From NCBI RefSeq assembly GCF_003430825.1, contig NZ_CP024047.1:2480001-2544000 (forward strand): 64,000 nucleotides of DNA, in the 5' to 3' direction. Under the pieces are notes generated by a model that had not been told where the DNA came from, made no database searches, and saw only the letters and a list, made by a program, of their open reading frames with translations. This DNA is from Natrarchaeobaculum sulfurireducens. Its GTDB lineage: Archaea; Halobacteriota; Halobacteria; Halobacteriales; Natrialbaceae. A program made the translations under genes and the position numbers. The first letter of the stretch is position 1. The number at the start of each line of letters is the position of its first letter. Of this stretch, positions 52,037 through 58,372 are shown piece by piece.

Positions 52037-52585
52037 ATGACACGACGCGTCACAGTATCGCTCGACGACGATTCGACGACGGCACTCGAGACGCTCAGTG
52101 CTGAAACGGGCACGGGACAGAGCGAAGTTATGCGCCGTGCACTGACGTTTTATGCGGCGAATTTCGAGGCGGCAACTGGTCGACCGAGTGATAATTTAGA
52201 ACAGTACTATCAGATGCTCTCGTCTGGCGAGCACGTCTTGCTGGACATCGACTTCTTACACGCGTTCTTAGAACACGTCTGTGACGGTGATGGCCCCGAT
52301 CCGTCGTTCGTCGAGGCCGCCGATCGTGTCTCTGACTACCACGCTCGCGAGTACGCAGACCGGTTCGACGAAGTCGGGGACGTACTCGAGTGGCTCTCGT
52401 TCTGTGGGTTTTTGGCGGTTCGACACGAGGACAATGGGGTCTATCACGTCGTGTTTCCGTCGGAGCCGGTTCGCTGGTTCATGTCGCGGTTTATCGAGCG
52501 TAGCACGGCCGATTTGCCGGTCGATGTCGAGATCGAGCCGGGAGTCTCGAAGGCGATCATCACCGAGCGCCCGACCACAGAGTGA
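52037..52585 (+). CDS. Ribbon-helix-helix regulator with C-terminal domain
   Basis: 182 residues. The N-terminal 45 residues (TRRVTVSLDDDSTTALETL, then GTGQSEVMRRALTFY) form a CopG/MetJ-type ribbon-helix-helix DNA-binding domain. The remaining part (about 55-182) is an unrecognised acidic alpha/beta domain that may sense a ligand. It lies just upstream of the NRAMP-like/hyuAB operon, 126 bases away and on the same strand, with two inverted repeats between, so it may regulate that operon. Confidence 0.75.
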   Translation: MTRRVTVSLDDDSTTALETLSAETGTGQSEVMRRALTFYAANFEAATGRPSDNLEQYYQMLSSGEHVLLDIDFLHAFLEHVCDGDGPDPSFVEAADRVSDYHAREYADRFDEVGDVLEWLSFCGFLAVRHEDNGVYHVVFPSEPVRWFMSRFIERSTADLPVDVEIEPGVSKAIITERPTTE

Positions 52586-52711: not shown

Positions 52712-53950
52712 ATGGCAATCACAGACAGACTGAGATCAGTCGGACCCGGCGCGTTAGTCGCGGCGGCGTTCATCGGTCCCGGCACCGTCACGACCGCGAG
52801 CGTAATCGGCGCGGAGTACGCCTACGTCCTGCTGTGGACCATCGTCTTCTCGATTTTGGCGACCATGGTGTTACAGGAGATGAGCGCTCGATTGGGCCTG
52901 ATCACCCAGCAGGGGCTGGGGGAAGCGTTGCGCAAGCAGTTCGACAATCCTGTCTTAAGTGCGTTCGCGGTCGGGCTGGTCGTGACGGCGATCGGCATCG
53001 GTACCGCGGCGTTCCAGACCGGCAACATCACCGGTGGCGCGGCCGGGCTCACGACGATCACTGGCGTTGGAGAGAACATCTGGGGGCCCGTGATCGGGCT
53101 GGTCGCGGGGGCATTGCTGTTCACTGGAAACTACAAGCTCATCGAGCGGGTCTTCATCGGGCTGGTGGTGGTGATGGGACTTGCGTTCATCGTGAACGCA
53201 ATCGTCGTTCAACCAGATATCGGGGCGCTTTCCGTCGGGCTCGTCCCCACGGTCCCCGACGGGTCGGCGTTGTTGATCGCCGGACTCATCGGTACGACGG
53301 TCGTCGGCTACAATCTCTTCTTGCACGCGAGTACGGTGCAAGAGAAGTGGAACGATCCGGAGGACCTCAAGGACGTCCAGTACGACACGATCCTCCTGGT
53401 CGCAGTCGGCGGGCTGATCACCACGGCGATCGTCGTCACCGCTGCAGCGGTGTTCCCCGAAGGGACCTCGATCGCCGACGTCGGCGAGATGGCCGACCAA
53501 CTCGAGCCGGTGATGGGCGGGTTCGCCCTGACGTTTTTCGCAATCGGGCTGTTCGCGGCTGGCTTTACCAGTGCGATGAGCGCACCGCTCGCCGGGGCCT
53601 ACGCCACGGCAGGTGCACTCGGCTGGGACCGTGACCTCAAATCCACCCGGTTCCGTGCGATCTGGATCACCATCCTCGGGGTCGGCATTATCTTCTCCGG
53701 GATGGGGTTCAACCCCGTCGAGGTGATCCTCCTGGCACAGGTTGCAAACGGGCTGCTGTTGCCGATTCTCGCCATCTTCCTGATTTATGCGATGAACAAC
53801 GAAGCGCTGCTCGGTGAGCACACGAACTCTCCCATTCAGAACCTGCTCGGGGGAATCGTTACGCTGGTAGCGATCATGATCGGCGTATTGACACTCAACG
53901 ACAACCTTCCAGCGTTTATCGACGTCTTGACCGGACTGCTCGGTCTCTAA
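52712..53950 (+). CDS. NRAMP-like transporter lacking the metal-binding signature
   Basis: 412 residues with about 11 membrane segments and the NRAMP (LeuT-fold) pattern, seen in FIGPGTVTTASVIGAEYAY (about 20-38), GNYKLIE and YNLFLHAS. In metal-carrying NRAMPs helix 1 has DPGN and helix 6 has MPH; here they read GPGT (22-25) and VGY (198-200), so all key metal ligands are gone. It is therefore probably not a Mn/Fe carrier. It heads an operon with hyuA (5 bases on), hyuB and an isomerase; Bacillus subtilis ycsG, an NRAMP-type gene beside oxoprolinase genes, is a parallel. Uptake of a cyclic amide such as hydantoin or oxoproline is inferred. Confidence 0.85.
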   Translation: MAITDRLRSVGPGALVAAAFIGPGTVTTASVIGAEYAYVLLWTIVFSILATMVLQEMSARLGLITQQGLGEALRKQFDNPVLSAFAVGLVVTAIGIGTAAFQTGNITGGAAGLTTITGVGENIWGPVIGLVAGALLFTGNYKLIERVFIGLVVVMGLAFIVNAIVVQPDIGALSVGLVPTVPDGSALLIAGLIGTTVVGYNLFLHASTVQEKWNDPEDLKDVQYDTILLVAVGGLITTAIVVTAAAVFPEGTSIADVGEMADQLEPVMGGFALTFFAIGLFAAGFTSAMSAPLAGAYATAGALGWDRDLKSTRFRAIWITILGVGIIFSGMGFNPVEVILLAQVANGLLLPILAIFLIYAMNNEALLGEHTNSPIQNLLGGIVTLVAIMIGVLTLNDNLPAFIDVLTGLLGL

Positions 53951-53955
53951 TCAGT

Positions 53956-56022
53956 ATGACCCAACACACCGCAATCGGCGTCGACGTCGGTGGAACCTTC
54001 ACCGACGTGGCGCTCTCAGTAGACGATCGACTCGTAACGGCGAAAGTACCGACGACCGACGACCAGAGCGTCGGGGTCTTAGAAGGGATCGCGAAAGCCT
54101 GCGAACAGGCCGGCATCGATCCGAGCAACCTCGACGAGTTCGCCCACGCGATGACCGTCTCGGTCAACGCCCTGCTCGAGCGCGGTGGCGCGAAGACGGC
54201 ACTCGTGACGACGGCGGGCTTTCGAGACGTCCTCGAGATCGGTCGACAGGATCGGCCGGACCTGTACGATCTCGACGCCGAAAAACCGAACCCGCTGGTC
54301 CCGCGTCGGCGACGGTTCGAACTGGAAGAGCGAACGACGGCGGACGGCGTCGAACAGCCGGTCGACCCGGAAGCGGTGCGTGCCCTCGCGGAGACGCTCC
54401 GGGCAGAAGCCGTCGAGGCCGTCGCCGTCTCCCTGCTGCACGCCTACGCAGATCCCGAGAACGAGCAAGTCGTCGCCGAGGTCCTCCGGGAGGAACTCGA
54501 CGTGCCGGTTTCTGCCTCACACGAGGTGCTCGCCGAGTTCCGTGAGTACGAGCGAACGTCGACGACGGCCGTCGACGCCTACGTTCGCCCGGCGATCGAC
54601 AGCTACGTGGGTCGACTGGTCGAGGAAGCTCGAGCGTCTGGAATCCCTGCACCGCAGATCATGCAGGCCAACGGCGGAATCGCCGACCCCGAGACGGTCC
54701 GCGAACACGCCGTGACGACGACGCTTTCGGGCCCTGCAGCCGGCGTCGTCGGCGCTGCGGCGACCGTCGACGACACCGACGTCGAGGGGCTCGTTACGTT
54801 CGACATGGGCGGCACCTCGAGCGACGTCAGCCTCGTCCGCGACGGGGAAGCCGAACGAACGACGGATTCGGAAATCGCGGGCGTCCCGATCCGGACGCCG
54901 ATGGTCGACGTGAACACCGTCGGCGCGGGTGGCGGCTCGATCGCCTGGGTCGACGCCGGCGGCGCGCTGCGGGTCGGGCCCCAATCCTCGGGCGCTCAGC
55001 CTGGCCCGGCCTGCTATGGCCGTGGTGGAACGGAGGCGACGGTAACCGACGCCAACGTCGTTCTCGGGTATATCGGCCCCGAAACGGCCCTCGGCGGCGA
55101 GATGACACTCGACGTCGAGGCCGCCCACGATGCTCTCGAGCGGCTGGCCGAGAAAGCGGGCCTCGAGGATGCACTCGAGGCGGCCCAGGGCGTCTATCGC
55201 GTCGCGAACGCGACGATGACGCGGACGATTCGGTCGGTAACCGTCGAACGCGGTCACGATCCGCGCGAGTTCGCCCTCGTCGCCTTCGGCGGGGCTGGCC
55301 CGATGCACGCGACGGCGCTCGCCGAGGCGCTCGATGTCGACCGGGTCGTGATTCCGCGTCCGGGCGGCGTGCTGTCGGCGTTCGGACTGCTGGCGGCCGA
55401 CGAGAGCTACGACGCCGTGCGGACGGTCGGGGTCGAACTCGAGAACGAGGCGCGACGCGCCTCGGACAGTCGAACGGGAAGTGAAATGACCCGTGAGACC
55501 GCAGACCGCGACCGACTCGAGGGCGTTTACGACGACCTCGTCTCCGACGTCCTCGCGGATACGTCAGACTCCGATGCGGCGGTCGTCTCCCGCGCTGCGG
55601 ACTGTCGGTACGCCGGACAGAGCTTCGAGTTGACCGTCCCCGTCGACGAGTCGTTCGATGCCGACGCCGTCGCCAGGCGGTTCCACGAGGCCCACGACCA
55701 GGCCTATGGCTACACGATGGAGGAAGGAATCGAGGTCGTCAACCTGCGAGCGACGGCGACCGTCGAGGGAGCCGAACCCGTCGTCCGCCACGACGGCGAC
55801 GGAGACGCCGTACTCGGCAGTCGGGAGGCACACTTCCCGGACGTCGGCACGAGGGAGACGACAGTGTACGACCGTGACCGCCTCGAGTCCGGCACGACCA
55901 TCTCCGGACCGGCGGTGTTAGAACAGGCAGAGAGTACGACCGTCGTGCCACCGGCCTGGGTGGGCGACGTACTCGCGGACGGAACGCTCGTACTGAGCCG
56001 AGAAGAGGTGCGAGACCGATGA
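53956..56022 (+). CDS. hyuA: Hydantoinase/oxoprolinase subunit A (HyuA)
   Basis: A 688-residue ATP-dependent subunit of the HyuA/HyuB amidohydrolase, opening cyclic amides (N-methylhydantoin, 5-oxoproline or similar). The actin-like ATPase fold is visible: GVDVGGTFTDVALS (8-21), FDMGGTSSDVSLV, and the AFGGAGPMHA block. The extension after residue 500 is the usual C-terminal domain. Its stop overlaps the hyuB start (ATGA). The exact substrate cannot be told; acetophenone carboxylase-like members exist, but the isomerase neighbour argues for a hydantoin or imide. Confidence 0.93.
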   Translation: MTQHTAIGVDVGGTFTDVALSVDDRLVTAKVPTTDDQSVGVLEGIAKACEQAGIDPSNLDEFAHAMTVSVNALLERGGAKTALVTTAGFRDVLEIGRQDRPDLYDLDAEKPNPLVPRRRRFELEERTTADGVEQPVDPEAVRALAETLRAEAVEAVAVSLLHAYADPENEQVVAEVLREELDVPVSASHEVLAEFREYERTSTTAVDAYVRPAIDSYVGRLVEEARASGIPAPQIMQANGGIADPETVREHAVTTTLSGPAAGVVGAAATVDDTDVEGLVTFDMGGTSSDVSLVRDGEAERTTDSEIAGVPIRTPMVDVNTVGAGGGSIAWVDAGGALRVGPQSSGAQPGPACYGRGGTEATVTDANVVLGYIGPETALGGEMTLDVEAAHDALERLAEKAGLEDALEAAQGVYRVANATMTRTIRSVTVERGHDPREFALVAFGGAGPMHATALAEALDVDRVVIPRPGGVLSAFGLLAADESYDAVRTVGVELENEARRASDSRTGSEMTRETADRDRLEGVYDDLVSDVLADTSDSDAAVVSRAADCRYAGQSFELTVPVDESFDADAVARRFHEAHDQAYGYTMEEGIEVVNLRATATVEGAEPVVRHDGDGDAVLGSREAHFPDVGTRETTVYDRDRLESGTTISGPAVLEQAESTTVVPPAWVGDVLADGTLVLSREEVRDR

Positions 56023-57644
56023 CGAAGATGACCGACGACCGAATCGATCCGATCACGCTCGAGGTGTTGCGAAACCAGTTCGAGAGCGTCGCCGAGGAGA
56101 TGGGCCAGACCCTGATCCGCGGGGCGTACTCGCCGAACATCAAAGAACGACGGGACTGCTCGACCGCGCTGTTCGACGCCGAGGGGCGGATGATCGCGCA
56201 GGCCGAGCACATTCCGGTGCATCTCGGCGCGATGCCCCAGTCCGTCGACGCCGTCACGGAGTACGATCCCGAGCCCGGCGACGTCTTCGTGCTCAACGAC
56301 CCATTCAGGGGTGGCACGCACCTGCCGGACGTGACGATGGTCTCACCGCTCGCACCGGACGGCGAGATCGTCGGTTACGCCGTCTCGAGAGCCCACCACG
56401 CGGACGTCGGGGGGATGACTCCTGGAAGCATGCCCGCCGGCGCACGCGAGATCTACCAGGAGGGACTTCGCATTCCGCCGACACGCCTCGTCGAAGGCGG
56501 TGAGATTCGCGAAGACGTCCGCTCGCTCGTGCTCGCGAACGTCAGAAACCCCAGCGAACGAAAGGCCGACCTGCAAGCGCAACTGGCGGCGAACGAACGC
56601 GCCGAGGTCCGGCTCGCCTCGCTGTTCGACGAGCACGGCCGTGAGACCGTCCTCGACGGTTTCGACGCCGTCATCGGCTACTCCCACGAGCGGATCGTCC
56701 GCGAGATCGAGGCGCTTCCCGATGGAACGTACGAGGCGACGGACGTCCTCGAGGGCGATGGGCTGACGAACGAGGACGTCGAGATCGCCGTGACGGTGAC
56801 CGTCGATGGCAACGCGGTCGATGTCGATTTCGCCGGAACGGCCGACCAACTCGACGGGAATCTCAACGCCCCCCTCGCGGTCGCGACGAGCGCGGTCTAC
56901 TTCGTCGTCCGCTGTGTCACTGATCCGGAGATCCCGCCGAATCACGGCTGTTACGAGCCCGTCACGGTGAAAGCGCCGACGGGGTCGTTGCTCAACCCCG
57001 AACCCCCGGCGGCGGTCGTCGGCGGGAACGTCGAAACCAGCCAGCGAGTCACGGACGTCGTCTTCACGGCGCTCGCCGGAGCAGCGCCCGACCGCGTTCC
57101 CGCACAGGGCCAGGGGACGATGAACAACCTGACGATCGGTGCGCGGGACAGTTCGTTCACCTACTACGAGACCATCGGCGGCGGCTTCGGCGCTCGAGCA
57201 GGAAAAGACGGGATGGACGGTGTACAGGTCGGGATGACGAACACGCTAAACACGCCGATCGAATCGCTCGAGACGGAGTACCCGCTGCGGGTCGAACGGT
57301 ATGCACTCAGGCCGAACAGCGGCGGCCGCGGCCAGTTCCGTGGCGGACTTGGCCTCGAACGAACCGTCACCGTCGATCGAGATGCGACGGTCTCGCTGTT
57401 GACCGAACGCCGTCGGCACGCACCACGCGGCGTCGGCGGCGGAGAGGACGCCACACCGGGTGCGAATCTGATCGACGGTGAACCTGTGGCGGCCAAGACG
57501 ACCGTCGACGTCGAGGCGGGGACGACGGTCACAGTCAGAACCCCCGGCGGCGGCGGCCACGGCGACCCCGCCGACCGCGATGACGAGGCGAGGGAGGCCG
57601 ACCGCGACGACGAAAAGCGAACGGAGACTGGAGATGAGCGATGA
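56019..57644 (+). CDS. hyuB: Hydantoinase B/oxoprolinase subunit (HyuB)
   Basis: A 541-residue partner of HyuA. Conserved blocks: DPITLEVLRNQFESVAEEMGQ (here read as DPITLEVLRNQF and onward), SPNIKERRDCSTALFD, NDPFRGGTHLPDV and ISRAHHADVGG-like RAHHADVGGMTPG. The final glycine-rich stretch TPGGGGHGDP is typical. Together with HyuA it forms the amide-cleaving complex. An acidic, Asp/Arg-rich tail (about 520-541) is a haloarchaeal addition. Its stop overlaps the start of the next gene (ATGA). Confidence 0.93.
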   Translation: MTKMTDDRIDPITLEVLRNQFESVAEEMGQTLIRGAYSPNIKERRDCSTALFDAEGRMIAQAEHIPVHLGAMPQSVDAVTEYDPEPGDVFVLNDPFRGGTHLPDVTMVSPLAPDGEIVGYAVSRAHHADVGGMTPGSMPAGAREIYQEGLRIPPTRLVEGGEIREDVRSLVLANVRNPSERKADLQAQLAANERAEVRLASLFDEHGRETVLDGFDAVIGYSHERIVREIEALPDGTYEATDVLEGDGLTNEDVEIAVTVTVDGNAVDVDFAGTADQLDGNLNAPLAVATSAVYFVVRCVTDPEIPPNHGCYEPVTVKAPTGSLLNPEPPAAVVGGNVETSQRVTDVVFTALAGAAPDRVPAQGQGTMNNLTIGARDSSFTYYETIGGGFGARAGKDGMDGVQVGMTNTLNTPIESLETEYPLRVERYALRPNSGGRGQFRGGLGLERTVTVDRDATVSLLTERRRHAPRGVGGGEDATPGANLIDGEPVAAKTTVDVEAGTTVTVRTPGGGGHGDPADRDDEAREADRDDEKRTETGDER

Positions 57645-58372
57645 GCGACGGCACCGACTCGCCGGGTCGACTCGGCCTCGTGGTCCCCTCCTCGAACACG
57701 ACCGCGGAGGTCGAGTTCGCCCAGTACACCCCCGACGGCGTCTCGGTCCACGCCGCACGGATGGCCCTCGAGTCCGTCAGCGTCGACGAACTCGACGCGA
57801 TGAGCGCTGACGCCACGCTGGCGGCCGAACTCCTCGGACACGCAGACGTCGACGTCGTCGCCTACGCCTGTACGACCGGGAGCCTGCTGCACGGCCCCGG
57901 ATTCGACGCCGAACTCGAGGAGACGCTGTCGGACGCGGCTGGCGTGCCGGCGGTCGCCACGGCCCGGTCGGTCATCCGGGCCCTCGAGATCCTCGAGGCC
58001 GAGCGGATCGCCGTCGCGACGCCGTACACCGCCGATCTCGACGAGCGAGAACGCGACTTCCTCGAGGCCGCGGGCTTCGAGGTCGTGCGTATCGACGGCC
58101 GCGGTATCGAAGCGAACACGGAGATCGGCGCGCTCGAGCCCGAAGACGCACGCGATCAGGCGACAGCACTGGCCGAGTCGGTCAAGAGCGTCGACGCCGT
58201 CTTCGTCTCCTGTACGAACTACCGGTCACTCGACGCAGTGGACGCACTCGAGTCCGACCTCGAGGTGCCCGTGATCACCAGCAACAGTGCGACGCTGTGG
58301 GATGCCTGTCGAGTCTCATCGATCGGCAGTGACGGCGCAGGCGTCCTGTTCGACCACGACTCGTCCGACTGA
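57641..58372 (+). CDS. Maleate isomerase/Asp-Glu racemase-superfamily enzyme
   Basis: A 243-residue two-domain enzyme with the paired active-site cysteines Cys77 (YACTTGSLL) and Cys191 (VSCTNYRSLD), and PSSNTTAE near the start (Asn19). This is the maleate cis-trans isomerase/arylmalonate decarboxylase branch of the Asp/Glu racemase superfamily. In the hyu operon it may isomerise a ring-opened product or racemise a hydantoin. Both cysteines are kept, so racemisation or isomerisation is mechanistically possible. ATGA overlap with hyuB. Confidence 0.85.
   Translation: MSDGTDSPGRLGLVVPSSNTTAEVEFAQYTPDGVSVHAARMALESVSVDELDAMSADATLAAELLGHADVDVVAYACTTGSLLHGPGFDAELEETLSDAAGVPAVATARSVIRALEILEAERIAVATPYTADLDERERDFLEAAGFEVVRIDGRGIEANTEIGALEPEDARDQATALAESVKSVDAVFVSCTNYRSLDAVDALESDLEVPVITSNSATLWDACRVSSIGSDGAGVLFDHDSSD

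Follow-up and report, generated by a model that had tools for sequence, protein, structure and literature searches.

NRAMP-family proteins are textbook metal transporters. For relatives that lack the canonical metal motif, it is disputed whether the cargo is a metal or an organic solute. Growth of Corynebacterium glutamicum on 5-oxoproline depends on its NRAMP-family protein PxpT (PMC13274462), whereas YcsG of Bacillus subtilis raises cellular Mn when overexpressed, was claimed to import Mn2+, and was renamed MntG (PMC10448178). Both are encoded with PxpABC, an ATP-dependent 5-oxoprolinase (PMC13274462, PMC10448178). The present analysis concerns an operon in a stretch of 64,000 nucleotides from the haloarchaeon Natrarchaeobaculum sulfurireducens (NZ_CP024047.1, positions 2,480,001 to 2,544,000; this whole stretch is designated as the window). 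In this operon, the gene for an NRAMP-fold protein is followed by genes for HyuA, HyuB, and an Asp/Glu racemase-superfamily protein, and the operon is probably a unit for the uptake and utilization of 5-oxoproline (pyroglutamate).

Other systems bear on this assignment. EleNRMT lacks the canonical motif and transports Mg2+, and canonical NRAMPs use the His residue in transmembrane segment 6 (TM6) for both metal and proton (PMC12873925). In the 2026 Nramp phylogeny, the related groups other than MntG and NRMT are entirely uncharacterized, and the "G-motif" groups are paraphyletic (PMC12873925). The substrates of HyuAB enzymes include hydantoins, caprolactam, and 5-oxoproline, and the catalytic metal of these enzymes is held by the HyuB-type subunit (PMC8453981). 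Among the papers covered by a literature search, none joined an NRAMP protein with a hydantoinase.

Conservation of the operon in haloarchaea

The window belongs to a nearly complete genome of 3.79 Mb (99.98% complete). Four plus-strand genes are arranged head to tail at 52712-58372, with intergenic distances of 5, -4, and -4 bases, exactly as reported in the initial annotation. The NRAMP protein alone was used as the query against 292 haloarchaeal genomes, and 85 close members including the window's own were obtained (at least 53% identity). The neighborhoods of 66 of them, chosen solely by NRAMP similarity, were analyzed with gene maps drawn by a codon-model gene caller. At 62 of these 66 loci, hyuA follows the NRAMP gene on its strand at a distance of less than 400 bp, and hyuB comes next, which bears out the NRAMP-hyuAB linkage proposed earlier. 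The racemase-superfamily gene is in the operon at 50 loci, and a gene for a ribbon-helix-helix (RHH) protein is found upstream of the NRAMP gene at 58. The exceptions to the NRAMP-hyuAB order are L041 (at a contig end), L076 (a lone NRAMP gene), L081 (rearranged), and L077 (with a creatininase-family gene). None of the four partners, hyuA, hyuB, racemase, and RHH, was present at 14 more distant haloarchaeal NRAMP-fold loci. The genes flanking the unit differ between genera, and thus the unit is not mere shared synteny; the operon architecture is beyond chance. The racemase gene is an accessory component because 12 loci retain NRAMP-hyuAB without it. In Haloarcula hispanica, the operon is carried by plasmid pHH406 (NRAMP, HISP_RS17550; hyuAB, HISP_RS17545/17540), and Haloarcula has no racemase gene in it.

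Glutamate dehydrogenase, striking in Haloarcula and located 4.6 kb downstream in the window, was seen in only 2 of the 66 neighborhoods and was dropped as a functional neighbor. An M24 peptidase gene adjoining hyuB in Haloferax-like loci was also rejected, being on the opposite strand and confined to that group.

At L077 (6028-11516), a hydrolase gene of the creatininase family (PF02633) takes the place of hyuAB after the NRAMP gene (53% identity) and the racemase-superfamily gene, and the flanks include an M20 hydrolase and a possible ureohydrolase, judged by similarity to Bacillota proteins. The same transporter may be served there by a different ring-opening enzyme. In Haloterrigena sp. H1, the NRAMP gene seems to be split into two pieces about 1 kb apart with an identical layout on two contigs (L169 and L170), which may reflect an insertion or a duplication in the assembly.

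The NRAMP clade and its bacterial members

The first transmembrane segment (TM1) of the window NRAMP protein is FIGPGTVTT (G22-P23-G24-T25) versus GYMDPGN in canonical NRAMPs, and its TM6 is GTTVVGYNLFLHA (V198-G199-Y200) versus ATVMPHN. The substitution of GPGT and VGY for DPGN and MPH, the Mn/Fe motif of canonical Slc11/NRAMP proteins, had been described correctly, and the alignment extends it: GPGT and V[GP]Y are shared by practically all aligned clade members. The metal-ligand positions are occupied clade-wide by Gly, Thr, Val, and Gly/Pro-Tyr, and the position of the canonical TM3 glutamate is Asn (N105 in the alignment with BfraNramp). The AlphaFold2 model (pLDDT 89.3), based on an alignment from which plasmid-derived rows were excluded, adopts the LeuT-type NRAMP fold, and its top match in PDB is DraNramp (Z 47.7, root-mean-square deviation 2.7, 379 residues). 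Among non-NRAMP structures, the alanine symporter AgcS (Z 30.4) and AdiC (Z 30.3), both amino-acid carriers, match best. The substrate cannot be read from the fold alone.

Genome contigs were scanned by the NRAMP motifs only, regardless of neighbors, and 80 loci were obtained, 57 of which are bacterial after the removal of haloarchaea. The bacterial members are 43-59% identical to the window NRAMP and come from Bacillota, Bacteroidota, Actinomycetota, and Pseudomonadota; the system, initially annotated as archaeal, is therefore not confined to archaea. At 31 of the 57 loci, pxpA, pxpB, and pxpC are all in the neighborhood, the nearest being less than 600 bp from the NRAMP gene. The rest are 2 loci cut by contig ends, 3 with pxp genes 2-3.4 kb away, 4 of the hyuAB type, 9 near a ureohydrolase gene, and 8 with none of these.

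Among the four hyu-type loci, L166, L171, and L194 encode HyuA and HyuB fused into one protein of 1207-1252 aa, while L217, from an Actinobacteria metagenome-assembled genome, has separate genes in the order D-glutamate cyclase-NRAMP-HyuA-HyuB. HyuA and HyuB of L217 are 52% and 58% identical to those of the window. The two paralogous pairs in the window genome itself (L036 and L037; 33-41% identical) show 38-41% for HyuA and 33-35% for HyuB, and neither pair lies close to any of the NRAMP-fold genes detected there. The D-glutamate cyclase family (PF07286, of which DUF1445 is the older name) is also encoded at the pxp loci L165, L172, L185, L186, and L196 and at the YcsG-type pxp loci L237, L246, and L251. 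It is among the 25 commonest families of the 87 immediate neighbors of the bacterial NRAMP loci, and neither DtxR/MntR-type regulators nor metal-transport families are represented in these 25. Mammalian D-glutamate cyclase, with DUF1445 among its domains, produces 5-oxo-D-proline (PMC5339696).

The commonest Pfam family among the 87 neighbors is DUF2891 (PF11199; 9 of the 87), and several Flavobacteriaceae pxp loci carry upstream genes of a size fitting DUF2891. The branch linked to ureohydrolases of the arginase/agmatinase family is from Bacillota (L167, L173, L178, L180, L187, L192, L201, L203, and L213) and often has a YheO-like PAS/HTH regulator.

In a wide tree of 94 rows, the sequences with GPGT and V[GP]Y constitute one clade of 72 rows with a support of 99, apart from canonical NRAMPs, YcsG-type proteins, and other haloarchaeal NRAMP-related groups, although the deep branching order is unreliable because of long branches. 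In a tree of the clade (71 rows), the haloarchaeal members group with the pxp-linked members from Natroniella, Oceanobacillus, and the genome G312 (16 rows, 98/95), and the pxp versus hyu label requires four changes. By identity, two bacterial relatives are nearest; one of them, Natroniella (59%), belongs to Halanaerobiales, and a transfer between halophiles is therefore plausible.

The relationship to YcsG was analyzed through 20 pxpA regions of Bacilli. One of them (L253) has an NRAMP gene of the window clade, and six (L237, L239, L240, L242, L246, and L251) have a distant NRAMP-fold gene. The YcsG type was assigned not from a name but from the gene order of L251, pxpA-NRAMP-ycsI-pxpB-pxpC, as in B. 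subtilis. The motifs of the YcsG type are IGPGFLTQ and GGTVGGYITF versus IGPGTVTT and GTTVVGYNLF in the window, the identity between the window NRAMP and a YcsG-type protein is 24% in one direct comparison, and the YcsG type falls outside the clade of 72 rows, on a long branch of its own. PxpT is 50% identical to YcsG (PMC13274462), and thus the characterized proteins belong to the YcsG lineage and not to the window clade. Motifs and tree reject YcsG as a member of the same family, and ycsG of B. subtilis, offered as a parallel in the initial annotation, is not of this lineage. The link to 5-oxoprolinase is shared through the 31 pxp-linked bacterial members, whereas the partner in the window is HyuAB. 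Judged by sequence, the window clade is a second lineage and not an ortholog of YcsG.

Two further NRAMP-related types were observed in haloarchaea. The window genome has a second NRAMP-fold gene (L002/L117, at about 3.08 Mb of C3), with TM1 AAGPATM and TM6 GGAVHITLL, also without the metal motif. Another group has TM1 YFGSGSVFIAS and TM6 ALWPNFFLES, and a conserved gene for a membrane protein of about 259 aa adjoins it at L104, L105, L107, L112, L113, and L115.

Hydrolase, racemase, and probable substrate

HyuA contains DVGGTFTD (10) and DMGGT (283) as phosphate motifs and GAQPGP (346) as the adenosine motif, all invariant in the aligned homologs. D46, H101, D104, and H126 of HyuB correspond to the metal ligands D41/H99/D102/H124 of CapB and are invariant at 89 of 89 loci. 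The residues that define ATP-dependent lactamases (PMC8453981), DxGGTxTD, DxGGT, and GxxPGP in HyuA and the Asp-His-Asp-His site in HyuB, are thus invariant in 88-89 loci. In caprolactamase, activity is lost or nearly lost when the corresponding aspartates and metal ligands are mutated (PMC8453981).

The window genome has zero matches to PF03746 (pxpA), which sets its hydrolase apart from PxpABC. No N-carbamoylase is encoded in the operon, and TIGR01879 has only sub-cut-off matches in the genome (best 33 bits versus the cut-off of 204). Hydantoin degradation would then stop at the N-carbamoyl amino acid, whereas the opening of a lactam, for example 5-oxoproline, would yield the amino acid directly; with neither pxpA nor an above-cut-off N-carbamoylase in the genome, a lactam fits better than hydantoin. 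Of the hydantoinase function initially annotated, the cyclic amide is retained and the hydantoin pathway is disfavored. In a silver-response transcriptome of Haloferax alexandrinus (PMC10694973), hyuA and hyuB are induced together and NRAMP is not listed, which is uninformative here.

The evidence points to 5-oxoproline because bacterial members of the same transporter clade adjoin pxpABC, and within the clade pxpABC and hyuAB replace each other as partners. The earlier proposal of an organic cyclic amide as substrate is supported and narrowed by this linkage. From the genomic context and the swapping with PxpABC, HyuAB would open 5-oxoproline in an ATP-dependent manner. The extension to the whole clade is proposed with less assurance, as only somewhat favored: its members in Bacillota, Bacteroidota, Pseudomonadota, Actinomycetota, and haloarchaea would be organic 5-oxoproline permeases distinct from YcsG/PxpT, to which haloarchaea add HyuAB as a non-orthologous 5-oxoprolinase and a racemase for the D form.

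A mechanism can be outlined, in which the substrate, transport direction, binding mode, racemase substrate, and regulation are proposed from the observed gene order, conservation, motifs, fold, catalytic residues, and swapping with pxpABC. The NRAMP-fold protein would be an organic-anion permease that imports 5-oxoproline, a cyclized glutamate, as food. The glycine-rich TM1 break GPGT and the V-G-Y of TM6, in place of Asp, Asn, and Met, would create a neutral pocket, and the Tyr of TM6 would occupy the place of the canonical His. APC amino-acid carriers hold the substrate carboxylate by a GxG break, and the TM1 backbone could hold a carboxylate in a similar way. HyuA would spend ATP to activate the lactam, and the metal site of HyuB would open it to glutamate, which enters metabolism. 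The racemase-superfamily protein would interconvert the enantiomers of 5-oxoproline or glutamate, making the D form usable too, and the RHH protein would regulate the operon. The RHH gene, overlooked in the initial annotation, ends 126 bases before the NRAMP gene, and its counterpart in Haloarcula hispanica is annotated as "ribbon-helix-helix protein, CopG family".

Decarboxylases of the arylmalonate decarboxylase family use a single cysteine. The fourth protein has, at the symmetric sites, the two catalytic-type cysteines expected in the Asp/Glu racemase superfamily (C77 in 61 of 63 homologs and C191 in 62 of 63), and it aligns with the maleate isomerases 2xec and 4fq7 at both cysteine regions. 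Since Asp/Glu racemases and maleate isomerase have this same pair of cysteines, a racemase appears likelier than the isomerase-like enzyme of the initial annotation. It most likely handles a D enantiomer, of 5-oxoproline or glutamate, by analogy with the D-glutamate cyclase in pxp operons and in view of its superfamily and context. It is very improbable that the protein is instead a true maleate isomerase or arylmalonate decarboxylase and that the operon serves the breakdown of a cyclic imide, for example maleimide, without feeding glutamate. Its closest solved relatives are indeed maleate isomerases and arylmalonate decarboxylases, and the aligned maleate isomerases share the PSSN loop as well as the cysteines. 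The scores against the NCBIfam equivalogs are nevertheless far under the cut-offs (arylmalonate decarboxylase, 122.6 versus 225; EutA, 115.4 versus 318), both cysteines are retained unlike in the decarboxylases, the gene is dispensable at the 12 loci mentioned above, and no maleamate amidase is encoded in the operon. Another cyclic amide, such as hydantoin, N-methylhydantoin/creatinine, or another lactam, would be carried in a rather unlikely alternative, with HyuAB as its hydantoinase or lactamase and the fourth gene encoding a hydantoin racemase, an arrangement known from the ATP-dependent hydantoinase genes of Pseudomonas NS671. The range of HyuAB enzymes allows it, hydantoin racemases share the superfamily of the fourth protein (PF01177 match), and L077 has a creatininase-family gene in place of hyuAB with an M20 hydrolase nearby. 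On a plasmid of Paracoccus yeei (L141:5980-10556), a racemase-superfamily gene directly precedes hyuA and hyuB, but with an ABC transporter ahead and no NRAMP gene. This alternative leaves N-carbamoyl amino acids as a dead end, while the clade swaps hyuAB with a dedicated 5-oxoprolinase, and D-glutamate cyclase adjoins NRAMP-hyuAB in L217.

It is unlikely that the NRAMP-like protein still imports Mn2+ or a similar divalent metal through a non-canonical site and supplies it to HyuB, or to PxpA in bacteria, as a cofactor. The metal ligands of HyuB are conserved here, and YcsG, encoded beside pxpABC and reported to import Mn2+, and EleNRMT are precedents for metal transport without the canonical motif. 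Against it, every metal ligand is replaced across the clade, the common bacterial neighbors include D-glutamate cyclase and not metal regulators or transporters, and Corynebacterium requires PxpT for growth on 5-oxoproline.

Several points weigh against the assignment to 5-oxoproline. The literature yielded no measured activity for any member of the window clade and no experimental study of its bacterial pxp-linked NRAMPs; the characterized PxpT and YcsG belong to the other lineage, and Mn2+ import is reported for the latter. L217 is one metagenome-assembled contig only. The nine Bacillota loci near a ureohydrolase, of which L187 has a glutaminase gene, and the NRAMP-racemase-creatininase arrangement of L077 may indicate that the substrate range of the clade is wider and that parts of it carry something else. 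Mutual exclusion of pxpABC and the operon in haloarchaea was tested, and the opposite was seen. pxpA is present in 36 of the 292 genomes, and the operon occurs in 20 of these 36 versus 65 of the 256 others (Fisher p 0.0006, in a test that ignores kinship). The haloarchaeal operon is therefore not a simple stand-in for pxpABC, and the co-resident systems may act on different substrates or enantiomers.

Table 1. Genes of the operon and its upstream regulator gene in the window.
Feature	Coordinates	Strand	Profile matches
RHH (CopG-type) DNA-binding protein with a C-terminal part of about 130 residues, probable operon regulator	52037..52585	+	PF01402 RHH_1 5.7e-8
NRAMP-related permease, proposed 5-oxoproline transporter	52712..53950	+	Nramp PF01566 326 bits
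HyuA/OplA-like ATP-binding subunit of ATP-dependent lactamase, proposed 5-oxoprolinase alpha subunit	53956..56022	+	PF05378, Hydantoinase_A PF01968 (318 bits), PF19278
HyuB/OplB-like metal-site subunit of ATP-dependent lactamase, proposed 5-oxoprolinase beta subunit	56019..57644	+	Hydantoinase_B PF02538 693 bits
Asp/Glu racemase-superfamily protein (Amdase/maleate isomerase branch), proposed racemase for D-enantiomer	57641..58372	+	Amdase PF17645 128 bits, Asp_Glu_race PF01177 40 bits

Comparison with described systems

NRAMP-type uptake of 5-oxoproline has already been reported for PxpT and is disputed for YcsG, and the window clade is a second, uncharacterized lineage. The idea of a repurposed NRAMP fold stands as far as the loss of the metal motif is concerned, while repurposing for 5-oxoproline is already published (PMC13274462) and Mn import is claimed for YcsG (PMC10448178). 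If the clade-wide assignment is true, organic-solute transport on the NRAMP fold would have two separate lineages. The position of the clade beside two unrelated kinds of 5-oxoproline-type hydrolases, with four switches on the tree, makes its members informative for the dispute between metal and organic cargo. A substrate can moreover be predicted for a haloarchaeal operon that is widespread and currently carries the annotation of a metal transporter and a hydantoinase, as well as for the uncharacterized HyuAB subfamily that it encodes. 5-Oxoproline arises spontaneously from glutamate and glutamine (PMC13274462), and its recovery is therefore of general interest.

DraNramp, other canonical Mn/Fe NRAMPs, and the Mg2+ transporter EleNRMT share the fold of the window protein over 379-385 residues (Z 44.7-47.7); the canonical proteins differ from it in DPGN, MPH, and the TM3 glutamate. 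The "G-motif" groups (PMC12873925), judged by their name, resemble it in the G at the TM1 Asp position, whereas the YcsG (MntG) type is a different lineage in the present tree. CapAB, the caprolactamase of Pseudomonas jessenii, matches the window HyuAB in its two-subunit architecture, in the motifs of the ATP site, and in the four metal ligands. The window HyuA, however, reaches about half of the caprolactamase equivalog cut-off score and HyuB under a third, and the gene neighborhood is different.

The bacterial pxp-linked members of the clade, from Natroniella (L165), Oceanobacillus (L172), Terrisporobacter (L196), and Marinifilum (L181), are 49-59% identical to the window NRAMP and have the same TM1 motif and a nearly identical TM6 motif (VPY instead of VGY), with PxpABC as the hydrolase instead of HyuAB. 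PxpT-PxpABC of C. glutamicum and YcsG-PxpABC of B. subtilis likewise encode an NRAMP-family protein with an ATP-dependent 5-oxoprolinase, and in the former, genetic evidence indicates that the transporter and the 5-oxoprolinase are both needed for growth on 5-oxoproline (PMC13274462). These two systems differ from the window operon in the separate lineage of the permease and in the hydrolase, PxpABC being of a family unrelated to HyuAB. They also have ycsI (Bacillus) and the GntR-type pxpR (Corynebacterium) versus the racemase-superfamily gene and the RHH regulator of the window.

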